A stretch of DNA of 64,000 nucleotides from assembly GCA_900319525.1 (NCBI GenBank), contig ONOU01000008.1, positions 30,253 through 94,252 on the forward strand. The letters run 5' to 3'. The notes beneath the pieces were generated by a model. It searched no databases, had not been told where the DNA came from, and saw only the letters and a list, made by a program, of their open reading frames with translations. The DNA is from an uncultured Prevotellaceae bacterium. GTDB taxonomy: Bacteria > Bacteroidota > Bacteroidia > Bacteroidales > Muribaculaceae. The position numbers and the translations under genes were made by a program. Below are positions 7,225 through 17,819 of this stretch, piece by piece; the stretch's first letter is position 1; every line of letters begins with the position of its first letter.

Positions 7225-9048
7225 ATGAACTTCAACTATAACCGCCGCCACACAGTCAGCGTCAACGTGGGCGGCATCGCAATGGGCAGCGAGTGGCCCA
7301 TCAGAGTACAGTCGATGACCAACACGTCCACCGACGATGTCGAGTCCAGCGCGGCCCAGTGCCAACGCATAGCCTATGCCGGGGCCGATTATGTCCGCCT
7401 CACGGCACAAGGCGTCAAGCAGGCCAACAGCATCGGCGAGATTTCGCAGGTGCTGCGTGCCCAGGGCTGCGACGTCCCACTCATCGCCGACATCCACTTC
7501 AATCCCCAGGCTGCCCTGGCGGCAGCTGCGGTGTGTGAGGGTGTGCGCATCAATCCGGGCAACTTTGTCGATCCGGCACGCACCTTCAAGCAGCTGGAAT
7601 ACACCCAGGAGGAATATGAGGCCGAGCTGGCGCGCATCCATGAAGCGCTCCTGCCGTTTATCGCCGTGTGCCGTGAGCACCACACCGCCGTGCGCCTGGG
7701 TGTGAACCACGGCTCGCTGAGCGACCGCATCATGAGCCGATATGGCAACACCGCCGCCGGCATGGTCGAGAGCGTGATGGAATTCCTGCGCGTATTTGTC
7801 GAGGAGGATTTCCTAGACGTGGTGATCTCGATGAAGGCGTCTAACGTTGTCGTTATGGTCGAGGCCGTGCGGCGACTGGTGGACGCCATGGACCGCGAGG
7901 ACATGCACTTCCCGCTCCACCTGGGCGTGACCGAGGCGGGATTTGGCGAGGATGGGCGCGTCAAGAGCGCTGTGGGCATCGGTGCCCTGCTGGCCCAAGG
8001 CCTGGGCGACACCATCCGTGTCTCGCTCAGCGAGGAGCCTGAGCTCGAGGTGCCCGTGGCCCGCAAACTCGTGGACTATATCTCGCAACGGCAGGGTCAT
8101 CCCGATATCGCCGGGGAATACTGCCCTGGATATGACCCCTTGTGTCCCGAGCGACGGGTGACCACCGCTGTCGATAACCGCATCGGCGGCAGTTGCCAGC
8201 CTGTGGTCATTGCCAGCTACAGGCCCGATGAACTCAAGGACGTGGCCTTGCAGCCCGACCTGTACTACAGCGCCAACGGACACATCGACGGCATGCACCG
8301 CTTCCTGGTGCCGCTCGATGCCTGGCATGGCGAGCGCAATGCCTACCCACTGCTCACCCTGGGAGAATGGGACCGCTGCCCCGACACGGCAAGCATGCGA
8401 TTCCTGCAACTGCCGGCCTCCACACCGGCCAACCGCTTGGAGTTCCTTCGTGGTCGTGAGGACACGGTGCTGGTGATCACGCCCGTGGGCATGAACATCC
8501 CCGGCGAGCAGCAGGCACTCATCCATGCACTCGAGGCTGCCGGCATCAACTGCCCCGTGATTCTGCGCAACAACTATTCCGACAGCTCCAACGAGTGGTT
8601 ACAGGTCAAGGCCGGTGCCGACATGGGAGCGGTATTGCTCAACGGCCGTGCCGACGGCATCTGGCTCGAGGCGCCCAACTGCCATAACTGTGCCGACGTC
8701 GTGCGCTATGCCTTCGCCATCCTGCAGGCAGCACGCCAGCGCATCACCAAGACGGAGTTCATCTCTTGTCCCGGCTGCGGCAGGACGATGTTTGACCTGC
8801 AGACGACGGTACAACGCGTCCAGCAGGCGACAGCCCACCTCACCCACCTCAAAATCGGCGTCATGGGCTGCATCGTCAACGGCCCTGGCGAAATGGCCGA
8901 TGCCGACTATGGCTACGTGGGCGCGGCAGCTGGCCGCATCAGCCTGTACAAGGGCAAGCAGTGCATCGAGATGAATATCCCCGAGGAGGAGGCCATCGAC
9001 CGCCTCGTTGACCTCATCAAGCAGCACGGCGACTGGCGTGAGCCTTGA
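7225..9048 (+). CDS. ispG: 4-hydroxy-3-methylbut-2-enyl diphosphate synthase IspG, long form
   Basis: IspG (GcpE) makes HMBPP from the cyclic diphosphate MEcPP in the non-mevalonate isoprenoid pathway, using a [4Fe-4S] cluster and reduced ferredoxin or flavodoxin. At 607 residues it is the long, three-domain form of plants and Bacteroidetes, not the ~370-residue E. coli form. The TIM-barrel half (about 1-280) begins NYNRRHTVSVNVGGIAMGS and holds RLTAQGVKQA and LIADIHFNPQ. An inserted domain spans about 290-500. The cluster half has CPGCGRTMFDLQ and GCIVNGPGEMADADYG, giving the Cys ligands and the catalytic Glu. The start at 7225 matches the family N-terminus. Confidence 0.96.
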   Translation: MNFNYNRRHTVSVNVGGIAMGSEWPIRVQSMTNTSTDDVESSAAQCQRIAYAGADYVRLTAQGVKQANSIGEISQVLRAQGCDVPLIADIHFNPQAALAAAAVCEGVRINPGNFVDPARTFKQLEYTQEEYEAELARIHEALLPFIAVCREHHTAVRLGVNHGSLSDRIMSRYGNTAAGMVESVMEFLRVFVEEDFLDVVISMKASNVVVMVEAVRRLVDAMDREDMHFPLHLGVTEAGFGEDGRVKSAVGIGALLAQGLGDTIRVSLSEEPELEVPVARKLVDYISQRQGHPDIAGEYCPGYDPLCPERRVTTAVDNRIGGSCQPVVIASYRPDELKDVALQPDLYYSANGHIDGMHRFLVPLDAWHGERNAYPLLTLGEWDRCPDTASMRFLQLPASTPANRLEFLRGREDTVLVITPVGMNIPGEQQALIHALEAAGINCPVILRNNYSDSSNEWLQVKAGADMGAVLLNGRADGIWLEAPNCHNCADVVRYAFAILQAARQRITKTEFISCPGCGRTMFDLQTTVQRVQQATAHLTHLKIGVMGCIVNGPGEMADADYGYVGAAAGRISLYKGKQCIEMNIPEEEAIDRLVDLIKQHGDWREP

Positions 9049-9074
9049 TGGAGTGAAACGGCAACAATAGCAAA

Positions 9075-10121
9075 ATGATTTATACGTCTATCACAATGAG
9101 CAAGATACTGTCACATAACCCCTTAATGATTGTGTTGCTGCTTGTCGCCATGCTATCGTCGTGCAGCAACAACGAGTTCAAGATTGATGGCAACATCGCT
9201 AACCTCAACGACGGTGTGGTCAGGATCGTCTTTCATGGCGACTCGAGCATCGTCGATGAACTGACTGATCTGGACGAGAAGGGACGTTTCTCCTTCAAGG
9301 GAGTGTCGGCACAGCCCGTGGTTGTGAATCTGCTTGATTCGCGGGGCAATCCGTTGACCGCGGTGGTAGCGGCTAACGGCGACCACATCAAGGTCAAGGG
9401 GGATGCCGACAAAGCATCAGGCATCAAGGTGCGCGGCAACCGCCTGAACGAGGACTGGCAACTGTTCCGCAACGAGCATGCGGCGTTCTACAGCGACCCT
9501 AACCCGAGCCGCCTGGATGCCGCTATCGCGAAATATGTGAAAGAGCACCCCGCCGACATGCTGTCAACGGTGCTGCTCATGGTCGATTACAGCGACTACA
9601 GCAACCGTGAGGCGGTGGACAAGATGCTGCAAAGCATTGACGAGAAGGCGCGTCCCAAGTCACTTCTTGAAGCCTACGAGAGCCGCCCAGCCAAGCGCAG
9701 GACGGAGGCGCTACCGCGCCTGATGACCCTCAATCTGGTCAAGCACGATGGCGATTTTGAGCACATCACGCTGACCAACCAGGTCACCCTGCTGCACCTG
9801 TGGGCCAACCCGTTCCAGAACCGGGTCACGACAGTGAACAAGATGAAAGGACTCAGCCCTGCCATCCACGTGGTGGATGTGCTGACCGAGAGCGACACGC
9901 TGCGCTGGCAACAGGCCATCAGTGCCGACCCTGCCTCTTGGAAGCACTACTGGGCTCCAGGCGGACCGTTAGAGCCTGGCATCCAGCTCCTGGGCATCAG
10001 CATGGCACCGTGGTTTGCGGTCATCGACAGCACGGGACTGGTCACCTACTCGGGACCCGACTACAGCACTGTCGAGCGTGAGCTGAATGCCGCGCTAGAT
10101 CCGATGAAAAAAACAAGATAA
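9075..10121 (+). CDS. DUF4369 lipoprotein with thioredoxin-like fold
   Basis: A secreted lipoprotein of 348 residues (341 if it starts at the ATG at 9096). A hydrophobic segment ends in the lipobox LSSC, Cys at about residue 30. The next ~100 residues (FKIDGNIANLNDGVVRIVFHGD) match DUF4369, the N-terminal domain of many Bacteroidetes periplasmic thioredoxin-family lipoproteins. The second half has the beta strand TLLHLWANPFQNRV where a thioredoxin would carry WCxxC, but both Cys are missing. It therefore looks like a redox-inactive member. It sits between ispG and yifB with short gaps on the same strand. Confidence 0.7.
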   Translation: MIYTSITMSKILSHNPLMIVLLLVAMLSSCSNNEFKIDGNIANLNDGVVRIVFHGDSSIVDELTDLDEKGRFSFKGVSAQPVVVNLLDSRGNPLTAVVAANGDHIKVKGDADKASGIKVRGNRLNEDWQLFRNEHAAFYSDPNPSRLDAAIAKYVKEHPADMLSTVLLMVDYSDYSNREAVDKMLQSIDEKARPKSLLEAYESRPAKRRTEALPRLMTLNLVKHDGDFEHITLTNQVTLLHLWANPFQNRVTTVNKMKGLSPAIHVVDVLTESDTLRWQQAISADPASWKHYWAPGGPLEPGIQLLGISMAPWFAVIDSTGLVTYSGPDYSTVERELNAALDPMKKTR

Positions 10122-10137
10122 TCATGAGATAAGGCCT

Positions 10138-11685
10138 ATGTTAACAAGAACGATTGCAGCCGCAGTACAGGGCATTGACGCCATCAAGGTCGAGATCGAG
10201 GTGACTGTCGATTATGGTGCCGGATTCATGGTCATCGGACTGCCCGACACCGCCGTCAAGGAGAGTGCCGAGCGGGTGAGGTGCGCCATCAGGCAGACGG
10301 GCAATAAGTTCCCGGGGCGCAAAGTGATGGTCAACATGTCACCTGCCGACATCAAGAAGGAAGGCTCGGCCTATGACCTGCCCCTGGCCATCGGCATCCT
10401 GGCTGCCGACGAGAAGGTACCGGTGGATCGGCTCGACCGCTACATGTTCATGGGAGAACTGTCGCTGGATGGCTCGCTACGGCCCATCAAGGGCGTGCTG
10501 CCCATGGCCATCCTGGCTAGGGAACTGAAACTCGATGGCTTTATCGTTCCGCAAGCCAATGCTATGGAGGCTGCCGTGGTCAACAACCTCAACATCTACG
10601 GTGTGGACAACTTCATTCAGGTGGTGAACTTCTTGAACGGTGACCTCACCCTGGAACCAACTGTGGTGGACACACGCGCCGAGTTTGCCAAGGCACAGGG
10701 TATCTTCCCCTTTGATTTTGCCGACGTCAAGGGACAGGAGAACGTCAAGCGCGCCTTTGAGGTTGCCTGTGCAGGTGGACACAACATCCTGCTGGTGGGC
10801 AGTCCCGGTTCGGGCAAGTCGATGATGGCCAAGCGCCTGCCGTCCATCATGCCGCCGCTCACGCTGAGCGAAGCCCTCGAGACGACCAAGATCCACAGCG
10901 TGGCAGGCAAACTGCCCCAGGGAACCACACTGATGACGACGCGACCCTTCCGCAGTCCGCACCACACCATCTCGCCCGTCGCCCTCGTCGGCGGCGGAAC
11001 GTTTCCCATGCCCGGGGAAATCTCTCTAGCCCACAATGGCGTGCTCTTCCTGGATGAGCTGCCCGAGTTCAATCGCTCCGTTTTGGAGGTGATGCGGCAG
11101 CCGCTGGAGGACAGGATTATCAGTATCAGTAGGGCAAAATACTCTACAGAGTACCCGGCGTCGTTCATGCTTGTGGCGTCGATGAATCCGTGCCCGTGCG
11201 GGTACTATGGGCACCCCAAGAAGAAGTGCGTCTGCAACGAGTATCAGCGCACGCACTACATGAGCAAGATTTCGGGGCCGCTGCTAGACCGCATTGACCT
11301 CCAGATCGAGGTCCAGCCCGTCGATTTCGACCAGATGTCGTCAAAAGCCCCAGGTGAGCCCAGCGCCGCCATCCGCCAGCGCGTCATCGCCGCGAGGATG
11401 CTGCAGGAGCGCCGCTTCAAGGACGAACCCGGCATCCACTGCAACGCCCAGATGACCCCGTCCCTGCTGCACAAATACGCCGAACCCAACGCCGCCGGCC
11501 TGGAGAAGCTGCGCGACGCCATGGACCGCATGAACATGAGCGCAAGGGCCTACGACCGCATCCTCAAGGTCGCCCGCACCATCGCCGACCTCGAAGCCTG
11601 CGCCGACGTCCTCGACCACCACATCATGGAAGCCATCGCCTACCGCAACCTCGACCGCCCCACCTACCTCGGCACCACATTATAA
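10138..11685 (+). CDS. yifB: YifB/ComM family Mg-chelatase-like AAA+ ATPase
   Basis: Full-length 515-residue member of the YifB/ComM family. In naturally transforming Proteobacteria, ComM is a branch-migration helicase that helps integrate incoming DNA. The N-terminal Lon-S5-like domain (about 1-165) contains VMVNMSPADIKKEGSAYDLP. Then come Walker A GSPGSGKSMMAKR (about 221-233), Walker B GVLFLDELPEF, a zinc-like CPCGYYG...CVC, the sensor region, and the C-terminal helical Mg-chelatase domain (from about 400). Its last ~55 codons recur as a separate copy at 12724-12893, and part of the Walker B region recurs at 14588-14675. In Acinetobacter comM is a known integration hot spot. Confidence 0.95.
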   Translation: MLTRTIAAAVQGIDAIKVEIEVTVDYGAGFMVIGLPDTAVKESAERVRCAIRQTGNKFPGRKVMVNMSPADIKKEGSAYDLPLAIGILAADEKVPVDRLDRYMFMGELSLDGSLRPIKGVLPMAILARELKLDGFIVPQANAMEAAVVNNLNIYGVDNFIQVVNFLNGDLTLEPTVVDTRAEFAKAQGIFPFDFADVKGQENVKRAFEVACAGGHNILLVGSPGSGKSMMAKRLPSIMPPLTLSEALETTKIHSVAGKLPQGTTLMTTRPFRSPHHTISPVALVGGGTFPMPGEISLAHNGVLFLDELPEFNRSVLEVMRQPLEDRIISISRAKYSTEYPASFMLVASMNPCPCGYYGHPKKKCVCNEYQRTHYMSKISGPLLDRIDLQIEVQPVDFDQMSSKAPGEPSAAIRQRVIAARMLQERRFKDEPGIHCNAQMTPSLLHKYAEPNAAGLEKLRDAMDRMNMSARAYDRILKVARTIADLEACADVLDHHIMEAIAYRNLDRPTYLGTTL

Positions 11686-11695
11686 ATACAGAAAT

Positions 11696-12718
11696 ATGTC
11701 TGACCAAGAGAGAAATATCATCATCTACCGCACTGCCGATGGCCGTGCATCGGTAGCACTTTATGCCCATGACGGCAAGATTTGGGTTAACCAGCAACAG
11801 ATGGCAGAACTTTTTGCCACCTCCAAGCAAACTATCAGTTATCACATAGTTAATATCCTGAAGGAAAATGAATTAACTCAAGATTCAGTTGTCAAAGAAT
11901 TTTTGACAACTGCCGCCGATGGCAAGAGTTACAACGTCATTTTCTATTCGTTGGAGATGATTATTGCAGTGGGTTATCGTGTACGTGGCGTACGTGGTAC
12001 TCAATTCCGCCAATGGGCAACGGAACATTTGACCGAGTATTTGGTTAAGGGATTCACAATGGACGATGAGCGTTTAAAGAATCCCGATGGTCGTCCCGAC
12101 TATTTTGATGAACTGTTAGCGAGAATTCGGGACATTCGGGCCTCGGAGAAACGCTTCTACCAAAAAATCCGTGATCTGTTCAAACTAAGCAGCGATTACG
12201 ATAAAACAGACAAGGCAACACAGATGTTCTTTGCCGAGACGCAGAACAAATTACTCTATGCTGTCACTCATCAAACCGCCGCCGAATTGATTTGCGTCCG
12301 TGCTGATGCCGAGAAGCCCAATATGGGTCTGACCACATGGAAAGGTTCCATCGTACGCAAGGGCGATATCATCATTGCAAAAAACTATCTGCAAGATGCT
12401 GAAATCGACAGGCTGAACCGCCTCGTTGACATCTTCCTGACATCAGCCGAAATGCGCGTACAAGATAGACGAGACCTCACCCTTGACTACTGGCGTGACA
12501 ACGTTGACAACCTTCTCGCCTTCCAGGGAATGGACGTTCTCCAAGACAAAGGCTCCGTCTCCAATGCCCAGATGGAGCATCACGTCCGTGAAGTCTACGC
12601 CGATTTCGACACCAAACGCAAGCAACTCGAAGCCCAGCAAGCCGACGCCGACGACCTAAAACTCCTCGAAGACATCGAGAAACGAATCCTCAACCAATCA
12701 AGTAACGAGCAAGAATAG
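11696..12718 (+). CDS. RhuM family protein
   Basis: A 340-residue member of the RhuM family, named after a gene of the Salmonella SPI-3 island. Its biochemical function is unknown and it is common on mobile and accessory DNA. Visible are an N-terminal helix-turn-helix-like region ([23 protein letters not shown]), the family signature [19 protein letters not shown] (about 98-116), and a helical C-terminal half ending in a charged coiled coil. It begins 10 bases after the yifB stop and ends 5 bases before a second copy of the yifB 3' end, so it is bounded on both sides by yifB sequence. Its base composition is less GC-rich than yifB. Confidence 0.9.
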
Positions 12719-12723
12719 ATGGT

Positions 12724-12893
12724 GACGCCATGGAACGCATGAACATGTCTGCCCGCACCTACGACCGCATCCTCAAGGTCGCCCGCACCATCGCCGACCT
12801 CGAAGGCACCGCCGACGTCCTCGACCACCACATCATGGAAGCCATCGCCTACAGCAACCTCGACCGCCCCACTTACCTCAGCACCTCGTTATA
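12724..12893 (+). pseudogene. detached copy of the yifB 3' end
   Basis: About 56 codons plus stop matching the C-terminus of yifB (11515-11685). Around 16 of about 172 bases differ, with exact runs of 48 and 43 bases. The frame is intact (starting [14 protein letters not shown]) but has no start of its own. Several changes are synonymous multi-base codon swaps (Ser AGC to TCT, Arg AGG to CGC), so this is an allele that evolved under selection as coding DNA elsewhere, not a recent in-place duplication. It lies between rhuM and the deiminase gene. The similarity continues a few bases past the stop. Confidence 0.85.
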
Positions 12894-12952
12894 AATCAGA
12901 GGTATGTACAATTTTGATAAATCTTTTTATTGACTATTTAATCATCAACACA

Positions 12953-14389
12953 ATGAGTACTTTGAAATATTTTGATACTCTAAAAAATGCTTTAGATGTT
13001 TATCAGTTTGCTAATGCAAATGAAGAACATCTCAATGAAGTGGTTTTCCCTAAAGTTGCAACACAACTTTTATACGGAGGCTTTTTTCTGCTCAATGGTA
13101 AAGAGAAATTATATCTCAGAGAAATAGAGTTTTACTTCATAAATATGGATGGCAGTATTCAAGAGGATAAACTGTATAGAAAAGATTTGCCTGACGATGA
13201 ATGGTTAGAGGCAGGTACTCTTTTCCCGCACAACTCTGGCATTGATATCACGTTTGAAGATCACGAGAAGCATAAGTTTCGCGCATCTGTATTGATTAGA
13301 GCCTTTGACCTTTTCAATATGGATAATTCCCCGATTATACTTGATAATGGTCGGTCGCTCTCGGTTTACGACATACTTTTATCAAGGAGTAACATATTCG
13401 ATGGAGTGTCTATCAAGTGGATGGATGAATGGACAGAACCTCGCACCAAGATCAAAACACAACAGCGACAAGGCTTGAAAGGAGCCCAAGCATATAGGAC
13501 ATGGAACTTTAGAAGGAATGAGAACTTGTTCATCTCACTCGACAAAGAGGTTAATAAAGTATATTTCTCAGATAAAGTCATGGTAAAGCATGATATCTCT
13601 CAGATATACAAAGAGATTTGCGATATACTCGATGAGTATGGCATAAAACATGAACTACTGCCCCACACCAAGGATATTTGGTGCCGAGATTACATGCCTG
13701 TACAGATGTCTCCTAATCGCTTCGTGCAATATGTATATGATCCAGACTATTTGGATAATGATCAATACCGAAACACCAAGACTTCGCCTGATGCCGTATG
13801 CGATGCCATCCATCTTGCCAGGTCCAAGTCTAAACTCATCTTGGACGGCGGTAACATCATCAGAACGCCTCAAGGAGTTATCATGACAAGAAAGGCTTAT
13901 AATTCCAACAAAATGAGTCAAAAGGAGTTTGAGGACATCTTTAAGCAAAACTTTGGGGTCAACAAAATAACTTGGTTAAATTGGGACAGACGTGAGATCT
14001 ACGGTCATGCCGACGGCATCGTACGATACATCAGTGCCGACCATGTTCTTATGACCAATTATTCTGAAATTGATAAAATGAGTGCAATTTCGTTTCGAAA
14101 AGCCTTAGAACAGGATGGATACAAAGTAGAAGAACTCCACTATTCGTCTAATGCGTTACCGAGAAGTGATGACGATCTTAGTTGGGCGTACATCAACTTC
14201 CTCCAGACTTCAAAGGTCATAATAGTTCCTCTTCTTGGTATTGAAAAACAAGATGCAGAAGCATTGAAGCAGATTCAAGACACTTATTCAGGTATCGATG
14301 TTAAGGGCGTTTATGCCTTACCTCTACTAAAAGAAGATGGTGGATTTAACTGTTTCAGTTGGACAGTTAATGAAATAATTGATAGATAG
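12953..14389 (+). CDS. two-domain protein: uncharacterised N-terminal domain plus PAD/agmatine deiminase-type domain
   Basis: 478 residues in clearly AT-rich DNA unlike its neighbours, so probably acquired. The C-terminal part (about 210-478) is a guanidino-group hydrolase of the Porphyromonas-type peptidylarginine deiminase / agmatine deiminase family: WCRDYMP, LDGGNI, HADGIVRYI and a late nucleophile candidate in GGFNCFSW carry the expected Asp, His, Asp and Cys. The N-terminal ~200 residues are not known to me. LREIEFYF and GTLFPHNSGIDITFE...ASVLIRAF weakly resemble methylpurine-DNA glycosylases, which is only a suggestion. I chose the ATG at 12953 over 12914 because the extra residues look like untranslated AT-rich leader. 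No signal peptide, so it is probably cytoplasmic. Confidence 0.75.
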   Translation: MSTLKYFDTLKNALDVYQFANANEEHLNEVVFPKVATQLLYGGFFLLNGKEKLYLREIEFYFINMDGSIQEDKLYRKDLPDDEWLEAGTLFPHNSGIDITFEDHEKHKFRASVLIRAFDLFNMDNSPIILDNGRSLSVYDILLSRSNIFDGVSIKWMDEWTEPRTKIKTQQRQGLKGAQAYRTWNFRRNENLFISLDKEVNKVYFSDKVMVKHDISQIYKEICDILDEYGIKHELLPHTKDIWCRDYMPVQMSPNRFVQYVYDPDYLDNDQYRNTKTSPDAVCDAIHLARSKSKLILDGGNIIRTPQGVIMTRKAYNSNKMSQKEFEDIFKQNFGVNKITWLNWDRREIYGHADGIVRYISADHVLMTNYSEIDKMSAISFRKALEQDGYKVEELHYSSNALPRSDDDLSWAYINFLQTSKVIIVPLLGIEKQDAEALKQIQDTYSGIDVKGVYALPLLKEDGGFNCFSWTVNEIIDR

Positions 14390-14587
14390 CCAAAAATGCG
14401 CCTTTTGAGATAACATGGGCTCGAATCCGCAAGAAAAAAGGGACGAATCTTTTGATATAATGTTTGTGTCTTTGTTCTGAGAAACGTTTATCTTTCTGGA
14501 TGTGATTGGTTTCCTGGTGAATATGGTGCTTGTTTCGGTGGAGTTGGTGCAACTGGGGACGGCTAAAAAATGGGGCAAGTTGTTCCG

Positions 14588-14675
14588 CTTGGATGAGCTG
14601 TCTGAGTTCAATCGCTCAGTTTTGGAGGTGATGCGGCAGCCGTTAGAGGACAGGATTTTCTCGATTTCAAAGGCG
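14588..14675 (+). pseudogene. internal fragment of a yifB gene
   Basis: Bases here encode [17 protein letters not shown] and a few more residues, matching the Walker B region of YifB ([17 protein letters not shown], 11050-11130) with most bases identical. Similarity fades on both sides, so only a short scar remains. It lies downstream of the deiminase gene, in the same orientation as the intact yifB. Confidence 0.8.
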
Positions 14676-14793
14676 ATCTGGACGAACTGGAGTACCGACT
14701 CGAAGAATGAGCCGAGGGTCACTTCTCAAACAATAGTAGTCGTACTAACAACTGATTGATCTGAGATTTCTGATCGGTTTTCGCAAACTAGAG

Positions 14794-14986
14794 TGTGTCA
14801 TAATTCAAATGCTGCAATAATAACCGCCCTGCAGGCGGGAACCTTTAGCTCGGCGAAGCCAAATTTATCAAATTTTTAAATTAAAATTAATCATTGATTT
14901 ATATTAATGATATTTTTAAATAAAATTTGAATAATTTCCCGTGCGATAGCACGGTTATATTTCCGAGCCGCAATGATGACACAGCC
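14794..14986. repeat. inverted-repeat element, TGTGTCATnATT ends (copy A)
   Basis: TGTGTCATAATTC (14794-14806) faces AATGATGACACAGC near 14972-14985, giving 11 of 12 matched end bases. The inside contains the TAACCG element at 14821-14957. A second copy of these ends bounds 30221-30313. No coding capacity; a non-autonomous mobile repeat is the likely reading. Confidence 0.5.
14821..14957 (+). repeat. TAACCG...CGGTTA hairpin-ended repeat (copy 1)
   Basis: 137 bases. One end is a hairpin around CCGCCCTGCAGGCGGG, the other a hairpin CCGTGCGATAGCACGG. The middle is very AT-rich (AAATTTATCAAATTTTTAAA and similar). The terminal bases TAACCG / CGGTTA form short inverted ends. A shorter copy of the same layout lies at 36978-37059 in the opposite orientation. 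Confidence 0.7.
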
Positions 14987-15018
14987 TCTTGTGAAACGCC
15001 AGCCACAATGCTGCCGGG

Positions 15019-15037
15019 AGGCGCAAGTTTTGCGTCT
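15019..15037. repeat. short palindrome GCGCAA/TTGCGTC
   Basis: AGGCGCAA and TTGCGTCT separated by three bases, with one G-T pair. It shares the GACGCAA/TTGCGTC core and the following CTAC with the palindrome at 53753-53776. Confidence 0.45.
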
Positions 15038-15079
15038 CTACATATTTGATGGGGTGAATGGCAACGCTTTATTTGTTTA

Positions 15080-16699
15080 TTACTTGTAGAGGAAGCGTTT
15101 GATGGTTTTCTTCGGGGTTTTCTCGAAGGGTTCGTTCATCATTTCCACTCTTGCGATCTTGCTGTATGCGGGGAGGGACTTGTTGGCAGCCTCGCGGATT
15201 TGTCCAGGAATGGTGGCCCTGGTCGCCTCGTCCATGTCGGCGGGGAGTTCGGTATAGACGAGCGCAGTTATCTTGCCGTCACGGTCCACCACAAGGCATT
15301 CGTCCACATTCGGGCAGTTGGACAGGACTGCCTCCACCTCTTCGGGGTAGATATTCTGGCCCGATGAGTTCAGGATCATGGATTTGATGCGTCCACGGAT
15401 AAAGATGTTGCCCTTCTCATCCATCACACCCAAGTCACCGGTTCGGAACCAGCCGTCCTGGGTAAATGCGGCTGCAGTAGCTTCGGGATTCTTGTAGTAT
15501 CCGATGGTCAGGTTGCGTCCACGCGCCTGGATTTCGCCGGGGACATGGTGCGGGTCTTCTGAGTCGATGCGGACTTCATGTACGGGCTTTCCGCATGAGC
15601 CTGGCACAAAATTGGTCCACCACTCATATCCCAGCAGCGGGCAGGCTTCGGTCATGCCATAGCCCACCGTATAGGGCAGACGTATCTTTTTAAAACACTG
15701 CTCGGCTTCGGGATTGAGCGCTGCACCACCCATGATGAAACACTGCACAGCGCCGCCAAAGGCCTCGATGACCTTGTTGCGGGCCTTGCGGTATATCAGC
15801 CAGTTCAGCACGGGGATGGCCAGCAGCGATTTGGCTTTTTCCAGCGCCGGCTTGATGGCGTTGGCATATATTTTCTCCATCACCAGCGGCACAGTGACCA
15901 CCATATAGGGCTTGATGTCCTGCATCGCCTTGAGCAGGGTGGTGGGCGACGGCGTCTTGCCCAGGAAATAGACGGTGACGCCATCCACGTTGGGATGAAT
16001 GAACTCGATGGCCAGCCCATACATGTGCGCCAGAGGCAACATCGAGACAACGGTCTGGCCAGGATGGTTCGGGAAGTGGGTGTTGGCAAAGTCGTCGGTG
16101 TCGGACATCGCCCCGTAGGTGAGCATCACGCCCTTGGGGTTACCCGTAGTACCCGACGTGTAATTGATGATGGCCAGGTCATCGATATTGTCGGTATCAT
16201 AAGAAACCTGCTCAGGCCACAGCCCATCGGGATAATGTTGCGCGAAAGCCTGTTTGCGCTGCATCCAAGCCTGAGCCACCACATCATCCCGGTTCCACAA
16301 CAAATTGCCGTCCCTAACATTGATGGCGGCCTTGAGTTCAGGCATGTCGTCGGGATTCATCTTTGCCCAGATGTCGTCGTCAACAAAGAGCACAACACTA
16401 TCAGAGTGCTTTGTCAGCGTTGAGACGCTGTCGGGATGAAAGTCGGCCAAAAGCGGGACCGCCACACGGGCATTCACATTGATGCCCCAAAAGGTCATTG
16501 CCCACCGTGCCGAGTTGCGCGCGCAGATAGCGATTTTCTCACCCTTACCAATGCCAGCCGCAGTGAAGAAGATGTTGAATTGCTCAACGTTTGTGGCCAG
16601 TTGGGCATAAGTAAAGGAGTCGCCGTTGTAGTCACACAAGGCTTTCCGGGTCCATTGCTCGCGGACAGTACTTTCCAAATTTGACAGATAGTGCTTCAT
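15080..16699 (-). CDS. AMP-binding long-chain acyl-CoA synthetase
   Basis: A 539-residue acyl-CoA synthetase of the FadD type, which activates fatty acids to acyl-AMP and then acyl-CoA. The P-loop-like motif INYTSGTTGNPKGVMLTYG lies at about 176-194. YGMTEACPL is the A5 motif, WFRTGDLGVMDEKGNIFIRGR the A7-A8 region, and a Lys near the C-terminus (KTPKKTIKRFLY) is the A10 lysine. No membrane segment is obvious. It is transcribed alone: upstream is a 400-base interval and downstream the repeat-rich interval. Whether the substrate is an exogenous fatty acid or a recycled envelope acid cannot be read from the sequence. Confidence 0.9.
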   Translation of the reverse strand: MKHYLSNLESTVREQWTRKALCDYNGDSFTYAQLATNVEQFNIFFTAAGIGKGEKIAICARNSARWAMTFWGINVNARVAVPLLADFHPDSVSTLTKHSDSVVLFVDDDIWAKMNPDDMPELKAAINVRDGNLLWNRDDVVAQAWMQRKQAFAQHYPDGLWPEQVSYDTDNIDDLAIINYTSGTTGNPKGVMLTYGAMSDTDDFANTHFPNHPGQTVVSMLPLAHMYGLAIEFIHPNVDGVTVYFLGKTPSPTTLLKAMQDIKPYMVVTVPLVMEKIYANAIKPALEKAKSLLAIPVLNWLIYRKARNKVIEAFGGAVQCFIMGGAALNPEAEQCFKKIRLPYTVGYGMTEACPLLGYEWWTNFVPGSCGKPVHEVRIDSEDPHHVPGEIQARGRNLTIGYYKNPEATAAAFTQDGWFRTGDLGVMDEKGNIFIRGRIKSMILNSSGQNIYPEEVEAVLSNCPNVDECLVVDRDGKITALVYTELPADMDEATRATIPGQIREAANKSLPAYSKIARVEMMNEPFEKTPKKTIKRFLYK

Positions 16700-17105
16700 A
16701 ATTTCCTGATTTTTAAAGATGCATTAAACATTAATACGACAAGATACGTGCCAGAATTATTTTTAATCATCCACCCAAAGGTACAACAATTTTTCAAATT
16801 ATCGCTTTTCAGCAACAAAAACTTCACTTTTTTCAGCATGCTACTTGCAGCTTTCATTCTACCTATTGCATCAGCTTTTTCCTCATGAGTAGTATGGTAT
16901 GCTGTGGAAATGGTTATCCAGCGTCATTTTTACCGGACAATAGTATGTGATGACAAATGGCCGTGGATGGAGACTTGCCATCCACGGCCATTTGCTATAT
17001 CGATATCGGTATGAGTTATCTTCAACTCACGATGCGGAGGGCCTGATTTAAAGCCGTCATTGCTGCCTGCCTATCAGGCTGTCCATGTTGTCTTGACAAT
17101 GAGCC
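16700..17105. other. gene-free interval between pyrH and the acyl-CoA synthetase
   Basis: About 400 bases. It holds the pyrH terminator hairpin (16954-16994) and, on the minus strand, TACCTTTG (16776-16783, seen as CAAAGGTA), a plausible -7 box for the acyl-CoA synthetase with a leader of about 77 bases. Nothing else is recognisable. Confidence 0.6.
16954..16994 (-). terminator. hairpin terminator after pyrH
   Basis: A perfect 17-bp stem (CAAATGGCCGTGGATGG and its complement) with a 7-base loop, 112 bases beyond the pyrH stop. It has no clear T run, so it may act as an mRNA end-protecting hairpin as well. Confidence 0.65.
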
Positions 17106-17819
17106 CTAGAGGGTGACGACTGTACCGATGGGCTCGCCGCTCATCACCTTCTTGAGGTTACCCACGACGTCCATGTTGAACACGTGGATGGGCAGCTTGT
17201 TGTCGCGGGCCATCACGGTGGCGGTCATGTCCATGACCTTGAGGCCACGGTTGTAAATCTCGTCATAGGTGATGCGGTCAAACTTCGTTGCCGTGGGATC
17301 CTTCTCGGGATCGGCGGTGTAGATGCCGTCCACGCGTGTGCCCTTGAGCATAACGTCGGCCTCGACCTCGATGGCACGCAGCGTGCTGCCCGTGTCGGTG
17401 GTGAAGAACGGGCTCCCCGTGCCACAGGAGCAGATGGCTACCTTGCCGGCCTGCATCGCCTCGATGGCGCGCCACTTGCTGTAAGGCTCGCCGATGGGGA
17501 ACATGCCGATGGCGGTGAATACCTGGGCGGGCTGGCCGATGGCCTCGAGGGCCGACGAGATGGCCAGTGCGTTGATGACCGTGGCGAGCATGCCCATCTG
17601 GTCACCCTTCACGCGGTCAAAACCCTGGGCGGCACCCTTGAGGCCGCGAAAGATGTTACCGCCACCCACGACGATGGCAACCTGTACGCCAGCGTCCACG
17701 ATTTCCTTGATCTGGGATGCATAGTCGGCGACGCGCTGTGCGTCAATGCCGCTCCCCTGCTCGGCAGCCAGCGACTCGCCGCTGAGTTTGAGCAATATGC
17801 GATGATAAATCGGTGTCAT
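17106..17819 (-). CDS. pyrH: UMP kinase PyrH
   Basis: PyrH phosphorylates UMP to UDP with ATP, an essential step of pyrimidine nucleotide synthesis. The 237-residue length is normal. Family marks are RILLKLSGESLA at the N-terminus (nucleotide binding), VVGGGNIFRG, DQMGMLATVINAL, and CSCGTGSPFFTTDT near the middle. The start at 17819 is chosen over the longer frame start because it gives MTPIYHRILLKLSG and has AAGGAG six bases upstream (17826-17831), a clear ribosome binding site that is rare for this group. It follows the TPR gene by about 100 bases on the same strand. Confidence 0.96.
   Translation of the reverse strand: MTPIYHRILLKLSGESLAAEQGSGIDAQRVADYASQIKEIVDAGVQVAIVVGGGNIFRGLKGAAQGFDRVKGDQMGMLATVINALAISSALEAIGQPAQVFTAIGMFPIGEPYSKWRAIEAMQAGKVAICSCGTGSPFFTTDTGSTLRAIEVEADVMLKGTRVDGIYTADPEKDPTATKFDRITYDEIYNRGLKVMDMTATVMARDNKLPIHVFNMDVVGNLKKVMSGEPIGTVVTL

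Follow-up and report, generated by a model that had tools for sequence, protein, structure and literature searches.

Integrons and Rhs/CdiA orphan arrays grow beside an anchor gene and contain displaced 3′ modules, AbaR islands interrupt comM in Acinetobacter by transposition, and insertion of a restriction-modification gene with a long target duplication was reportedly described by Nobusato et al. in 2000. Restriction-modification insertion with long target duplication is mentioned in PMC4978471 and PMC3154945. Two systems come closer. Integrase-less hotspots, as described in a 2017 paper (PMC5635113), lack an integrase and hold variable cargo beside a recombining core gene; in mobile open reading frames of fungal mitochondria (atp6 in Allomyces; atp6, atp9, cox2, and nad3 in Glomus), as PMC3630166 describes them, the host gene remains complete through a foreign 3′ end, and its native 3′ end comes to lie beyond the inserted gene. 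Here we describe a 64,000-nucleotide stretch (the window; contig ONOU01000008.1 of assembly GCA_900319525.1, from an uncultured Prevotellaceae bacterium) and its relatives, a genus of gut bacteria in which foreign genes, some of them resembling phage-defense genes, appear to enter behind a single housekeeping gene, yifB, which encodes a ComM-family AAA+ ATPase. Among the titles and abstract openings surveyed, we recognized no paper that treats the yifB of Bacteroidales as a site of island insertion.

Like integrase-less hotspots, yifB arrays combine the lack of an integrase match (in the 12 arrays tested) with raised core-gene recombination and rapid cargo turnover; unlike the hotspots of PMC5635113, they repeat part of the core gene between cargo genes, with fixed 5′ edges, short motifs, and ordered stacking. 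Tail replacement and displaced 3′ ends are present as in the fungal elements, but an endonuclease in the insert is mostly absent: in PMC3630166 each insert carries one, whereas most yifB arrays lack that kind and several units stack. Restriction-modification insertions share a long direct target repeat flanking the insert, whereas yifB repeats are one-sided gene ends with a defined start, reused with many cargo types. Integrons and Rhs/CdiA arrays share growth next to an anchor and displaced 3′ modules, but no tyrosine recombinase match was found next to the anchor in the 12 yifB arrays tested, and what is detached from yifB is a conserved tail rather than a variable toxin domain. An earlier note on this DNA had drawn a parallel with comM islands. 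The family is indeed shared, and AbaR likewise has a YifB/ComM-family gene as its island site, but the parallel is looser than proposed, since yifB stays whole here (open, 515 amino acids [aa], uninterrupted, with no inverted repeat of ≥25 nucleotides [nt] in 8500 to 17500).

With a probability of about 60%, we read the locus as an integrase-free cassette-accretion hotspot that is driven by recombination among yifB 3′ ends and was founded by tail-replacing insertions. The 3′ half of yifB would serve as an integrase-free docking region for units, each pairing a yifB 3′-end copy with one cargo gene or a few. An incoming unit would recombine into yifB, its tail completing the resident head and keeping the gene whole, while the resident tail would move downstream together with all cargo acquired earlier; repeated rounds would build an array with the newest unit first, in which old tails between cargo decay. 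Exchange would probably proceed by homologous recombination (RecA), possibly with YifB acting as a ComM-type branch-migration helicase and with DNA uptake by transformation, and the duplications that founded the arrays, at codons 305 and 281, would have been made by tail-replacing insertions, plausibly homing endonuclease elements like an HNH gene found behind yifB. In Riemerella anatipestifer, transformation of YifB transposon mutants occurs at 1.3-3.6e-7 versus 5.5e-5, >100-fold less (PMC8459023), and because these mutants transform poorly, YifB is likely the ComM of Bacteroidota. The window's genome matches the ComEC and DprA families; E. coli matches both too, so these matches are not specific. 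The arrays bear on the open question of how integrase-less defense islands gain and lose genes: because exchanged units leave ordered scars in the form of old gene ends, the order of arrival, the donors, and the crossover points can be read, and because the anchor gene is a relative of ComM, a transformation helicase of the same family, one can test whether DNA uptake and defense-gene turnover are connected.

We searched 101 genomes of the genus, which we guess to be Sodaliphilus, the window's own included, and mapped YifB pieces by tblastn at 61 yifB loci (the window and 60 stretches fetched from relatives). A yifB head is present in 57 of the 61 loci and detached pieces in 38, where other cargo lies between yifB tails, as the earlier note had expected. 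The order of rhuM, tail, and deiminase gene seen in the window is not fixed in relatives but varies, and a near-empty site exists at one locus (L068, where a frame-broken yifB and a fragment of 116 aa precede the flank gene). All 83 tblastn pieces lie downstream on the same strand, with none upstream and none inverted; some tails count as two or three of these pieces, and L067 contributes one, starting at codon 290 on a contig edge, that is probably an intact gene cut by assembly. Thirty pieces start at codon 305 (±1; the window's clade), 12 at codon 281 (a more distant clade), 33 at codon 398 or later, and 8 elsewhere, the window's scar being listed among the last at codon 301, with its match running into a motif described below. 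With 42 of the 83 at just two codons, the start points are nonrandom. The fixed boundaries at codons 305 and 281 are a point that the earlier note missed.

As a control, the neighboring core gene ispG, matched in 97 of the 101 genomes, had no displaced 3′ copies, each genome giving one match or two pieces of one gene (on two contigs in G012). Among genomes of ≥90% completeness, at least two YifB-tail matches occur in 10/18 of the same genus versus 6/129 of other genera, and these six could include weak AAA paralogues; no detached tail was found in the fetched downstream DNA of 20 other-genus yifB loci (≤3 kb; almost none in L142). The extent of the codon-305 pieces bears on whether exchange continues. 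Eighteen of the 30 end at codons 343 to 390, many of them at the distal array end, as if they were one ancestral scar, which is what old one-off insertions, vertically inherited and merely decayed, would leave behind. We consider such a history very improbable: the cargo varies between loci (183 proteins of ≥110 aa in 114 families across the 38 loci), heads and tails are unlinked (see below), and 11 codon-305 tails extend to codon 480 or beyond, 10 of them with 95 to 98% and one with 86% protein identity to the window's YifB.

Accretion from the yifB side is supported by units that stand first behind yifB in one genome and second in another (F labels denote the protein clusters of this analysis). 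The three-gene unit F17-F21-F22 directly follows intact yifB in L061 and L071 and comes second, behind a detached tail, in L043, L056, and L065; an unbroken alignment of L043 4015-6960 with L061 1947-4901, from codon 316 through the cargo (92% over 2,973 columns), pairs the detached tail and cargo of L043 with the intact tail and cargo of L061. Likewise, the F72-F3 unit leads the array in L051 and takes second place after rhuM in L052 (98%), and F19 is first in L039 and L058 and later in L066, L061, and L051. Since the same units are first in some genomes and second in others, at least some detached tails were once working gene ends. A further order example, F45-F46 in L072, was set aside; its genome has a second complete yifB match and a listed contamination of 6%.

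The tails themselves are foreign and mosaic. In the window, intact yifB (10138..11685, plus strand; Pfam Mg_chelatase, ChlI, and Mg_chelatase_C) is followed by a detached 3′ end of codons 460 to 515 (12724..12896, plus strand) that is 91% identical to it. The top matches of this detached tail are intact yifB genes of other species (96.9, 95.5, and 95.0%), and the genome's own intact yifB ranks 33rd of 48 other matches of ≥150 nt, at 90.6%; over the last 18 codons only, the own yifB ties for best match at 98.1%. The closest relatives of tails shift from window to window along the tail, and multi-codon strings common to tail alleles recur behind unrelated heads. The same rhuM-tail junction as the window's is found in L052. 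The idea that the detached tail evolved as a working yifB end elsewhere thus agrees with its best matches. The expectation that tail copies match other lineages best holds for the codon 460 to 515 piece and is equivocal for the scar (92.0% to another detached copy, 91.5% to the own yifB). Of the two routes that had been suggested, arrival of cargo with foreign yifB ends through recombination at yifB is supported by the relatives' arrays and the foreign tails, and a collapsed tandem row of yifB-cargo units found no specific support.

Heads and tails are unlinked near codon 305 in the window's clade, as judged from sequence distances. Among 28 close-clade genes, distance over codons 241 to 304 follows that of the head (r 0.39, 0.61, and 0.41; p 0.003 each), and ten windows over codons 305 to 508 have no correlation with the head (r −0.18 to 0.11, p ≥ 0.156). 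Because head and tail are unlinked from about codon 305 across these 28 relatives, we read the window's intact yifB as a probable hybrid whose tail is codons 305 to 515 (11050-11682). A comparison group of 32 "other" genes gave r of 0.15 to 0.52, with p < 0.05 in 10 of 13 windows, and was weak at codons 281 to 304 (r 0.15, p 0.083), 465 to 484, and 485 to 508; this group is not array free, downstream DNA having been fetched for 16 members and the gene alone for the other 16; detached pieces occur in three of the former (L071, L094, and L096). A finer scan of 23 close-clade genes gave r of 0.55 (codons 277 to 286), 0.38 (282 to 291), 0.26 (287 to 296), 0.17 (297 to 306), and 0.11 (302 to 311). 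As proof of site-specific crossing, linkage is indecisive, being near chance over most of the tail.

Fourfold diversity sinks toward the 3′ end to 0.03 to 0.08 at codons 481 to 510 and rises in the last five codons; 20 yifB genes of other genera give 0.49 to 0.50 close to their ends. The low diversity fits a 3′ end frequently exchanged within the genus, but DNA-level selection may be the cause instead. In the close clade, 0.87 of codons at 21 to 40 codons from the end are C ending, compared with 0.48 in other genera. Over the last 40 codons (476 to 515; window 11563-11682), third positions are C at 0.70 to 0.87 in the close clade versus 0.48 to 0.50 elsewhere, and this C-rich, G-poor gene end may act as a Rho-type terminator or in some other way at the DNA level.

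The 5′ boundaries of the tails are fixed and accompanied by short motifs. Codon-305 junctions have in common a 28-bp sequence ending in TTGGATGA (31 junctions aligned), and codon-281 junctions have a different common sequence of 30 bp (13 junctions aligned); at three codon-305 junctions the 28-bp stretch alone is conserved and the upstream sequence is unrelated. Allowing up to 2 and 3 mismatches, respectively, the 28-bp motif occurs in 28 and the 30-bp motif in 17 of the 101 genomes, no genome has both, and reversed control patterns gave no match in the 101. In 20 further stretches, 15 of 21 motif matches are directly followed by a YifB piece; the other six lie in L152, L158 (two), L159, L163, and L171, and L158 and L171 contain the usual flank gene. 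YifB tail pieces apart from the same genome's yifB array were observed in L152 (G067:C8) and L167 (G029:C3), the former also with the 28-bp motif. Forty-one of the 83 pieces are listed with other starts, at least two of which (the window's scar and L094) represent the same junctions; by eye, no common motif was seen upstream of junctions from codon 398 on.

We rejected the reading of detached tails as parts of translated fusion proteins, the L039 and L043 junctions having an in-frame stop shortly before the tail, and because tail-frame stop codons precede the tail in at least two junctions, we take the motif to act at the DNA level. The motifs permit a search for such arrays in metagenomes. 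Exact matches occurred in 25 stretches from metagenome-assembled genomes labeled Muribaculaceae, Prevotellaceae, Porphyromonadaceae, or Bacteroidales, several of them from goat, sheep, or roe deer or carrying RUG names, which we take to denote rumen genomes. Both motifs gave 0 exact matches in IMG/VR viral contigs; hence, this search found no phage vector. The YifB tail itself matched 23 phage and 53 plasmid records in the respective collections, one phage record at 80 to 90% identity and all others lower, most of them at <60%.

In five genome pairs with a common cassette, identity is 96 to 100% over the 70 nt before the motif and, 9 to 120 nt past the junction, 60 to 86% in four pairs and 91 to 100% in one; three of these five informative pairs have members in common (L083, L086, and L098). 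Six of 12 junction pairs are uninformative, with upstream sequence not shared, and in L056/L061 the upstream is just partly shared (84%), with no fall of identity past the junction. The sharp fall fits precise joining and also fits rapid gene conversion among tails, which could give a sharp edge because only the tail has partners. Left cassette edges are not sharp, the shared cargo being most similar from about the gene end onward. Given two explanations for the sharp edge and left edges that are not sharp, we claim no enzyme-directed site.

Precise joining would be expected of integron-like, site-specific cassettes, for which a recombinase acting in trans would join a cassette end motif to yifB codon 305 or 281, with each motif supplying one half of an attachment site. 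Two distinct short motifs, each tied to one codon, kept despite unrelated upstream sequence and confined to separate genomes, speak for such a system, as does the drop in identity at the junction in four of the five pairs. We nevertheless consider it unlikely. At codons 305 and 306 (CTN GAY), where a recombinase overlap ought to be identical, the intact sites are variable, motif and intact site differ in length by ∼5 to 7 bp, and rapid gene conversion of tails could yield an equally sharp edge. Moreover, Phage_integrase (PF00589) had no match inside any of the 12 arrays tested, although the same 12 genomes have 4 to 15 matches each, all outside the array, and it is absent among the Pfam families listed for 113 cargo representatives. 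A large serine recombinase as driver was rejected, its domain occurring in only 9 of the 101 genomes and not in the window's.

A different enzyme is encoded behind yifB in a few genomes. The product of L063:3057-3719 combines an HNH domain with two homing-associated repeats, a second example lies at L043:3166-3828, and close homologues occur in 4 of the 101 genomes, each time behind yifB (∼0.6 kb behind it in three and behind rhuM in G046). This HNH homing endonuclease is a candidate founder of the tail-replacing insertions. Taken further, the arrays as a whole could be homing-endonuclease elements that replace the yifB tail as in fungal mitochondria, the nuclease cutting an element-free yifB near codon 305 and repair copying the tail, the nuclease gene, and hitchhiking cargo. 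The exclusive position behind yifB accords with this, as do L043 and L063, where the HNH gene is the last one before the codon-305 junction (153 nt), and an anatomy equal to that of the atp6, cox2, and nad3 hybrids (PMC3630166). However, we regard this as quite unlikely for the arrays at large: 97 of the 101 genomes, most array-bearing ones included, have no close homologue, the window's array lacks the gene, and one of the four copies (G066) contains a stop codon. In addition, G046 (L082) is a codon-281 genome in which the HNH gene is followed by a codon-416 piece, not a codon-305 piece, and the gene is therefore not tied to one boundary.

Several of these observations weigh against accretion by recombination among yifB ends after tail-replacing founding insertions. 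Housekeeping recombination alone fails to explain the three junctions that keep just the 28-bp motif, and identity falling right at the junction in four of five cassette pairs could mean enzyme-directed joining. The candidate founder is found in only 4 of 101 genomes, the window's not among them, and its L082 copy precedes the codon-416 piece. Because the head correlation sinks before the boundary, we place the step near, not exactly at, codon 305. Nor is low linkage peculiar to the 305 junction, since values close to chance extend over much of the tail; the comparison group is also weak at codons 281 to 304. The 15 genes of the codon-281 clade lack a correlation even over codons 241 to 280 (r 0.05 to 0.06), and so no step at 281 is seen. 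It is possible, though on balance rather doubtful, that yifB instead anchors a dedicated, integron-like cassette-capture platform built into a DNA-uptake helicase gene, where a nuclease or recombinase in trans would capture defense and other genes at codons 305 and 281 through 28- to 30-bp sites and each cassette would carry a replacement gene end, the anchor never being broken.

We scanned 113 cargo representatives with Pfam and 86 with PADLOC, plus ten single PADLOC scans. Among the matches listed (the 25 most frequent or best families per set, of 56, 26, 41, and 33, for Pfam, and likewise 25 per set for PADLOC) are Thoeris ThsA/ThsB, bSEFIR, AbiE, AbiL, viperin, AriA, GmrSD, McrBC, SIR2, Schlafen, Fic, DUF1016/YhcG, SocA/Panacea, and further candidate defense families, as well as leucine-rich-repeat proteins and a sulfatase-modifying-factor domain. 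These defense labels are family matches and denote candidate functions. One IS1595-type transposase is present among the cargo. An eight-gene cluster forms a single cassette flanked by intact yifB and a codon-281 tail in L080 (2630-17038) and L084; the stretch is 94% identical between the two genomes, the yifB heads of which are 77% identical. GH32, SusD, and TonB-receptor families are listed in the set containing the L080 cassette, which is probably of the GH32/SusC-SusD polysaccharide type.

In the window, the gene order is as the earlier note described it, with yifB, rhuM, detached tail, and deiminase gene all on the same strand, and no integrase match lies inside the array, in line with its observation of no local integrase. 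Codons 299 to 308 of intact yifB (11032..11061, plus strand), which carry a Walker-B-like LFLDE motif, are the place where this clade's detached tails start. Cargo 1 is the RhuM-family gene rhuM (11696..12718, plus strand; PF13310, E 7.5e-108; PADLOC candidate PDC-S05, E 9.7e-145). Cargo 2 is the AT-rich deiminase gene (12950, or 12914, to 14389, plus strand), with a C-terminal Porphyromonas-type peptidyl-arginine deiminase domain (PF04371, PAD_porph, E 1.1e-30) and no match in a PADLOC scan; ∼226 N-terminal residues ahead of the PAD_porph stretch have no Pfam match. GC content is 0.603 in yifB, 0.473 in rhuM, 0.607 in the detached tail, and 0.388 in the deiminase gene.

The 28-bp motif marks the right array edge (14569..14596, plus strand; pattern match G000:C30:44821-44848, with the consensus from 31 junctions), and behind it, at the distal array end, lies a decayed detached tail from codon 305 (14590..14660, plus strand; Mg_chelatase, E 1.3e-07). 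What had been called a short internal yifB scar is thus a genuine yifB piece, but it is the 5′ edge of a detached tail behind the motif; the first four codons of its tblastn match (codons 301 to 333) fall inside the motif. The window contains two direct repeats, 11515-11687 versus 12724-12896 (173 nt, 91%) and 11042-11121 versus 14581-14660 (80 nt, 88%). The genome (assembly of 3.28 Mb in 54 contigs) has a single full-length yifB, and its two other yifB matches are the window pieces. An Rfam scan of 9000 to 17500 gave no match, and a tRNA search of the window found none. The flank gene, encoding an AMP-binding enzyme (15080..16699, minus strand; PF00501), belongs to a protein cluster present in 23 of the 61 loci. 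Between array and flank gene, 14784-14990 is a dispersed repeat of ∼200 bp with 28 further partial matches, on both strands, in the window's own genome.

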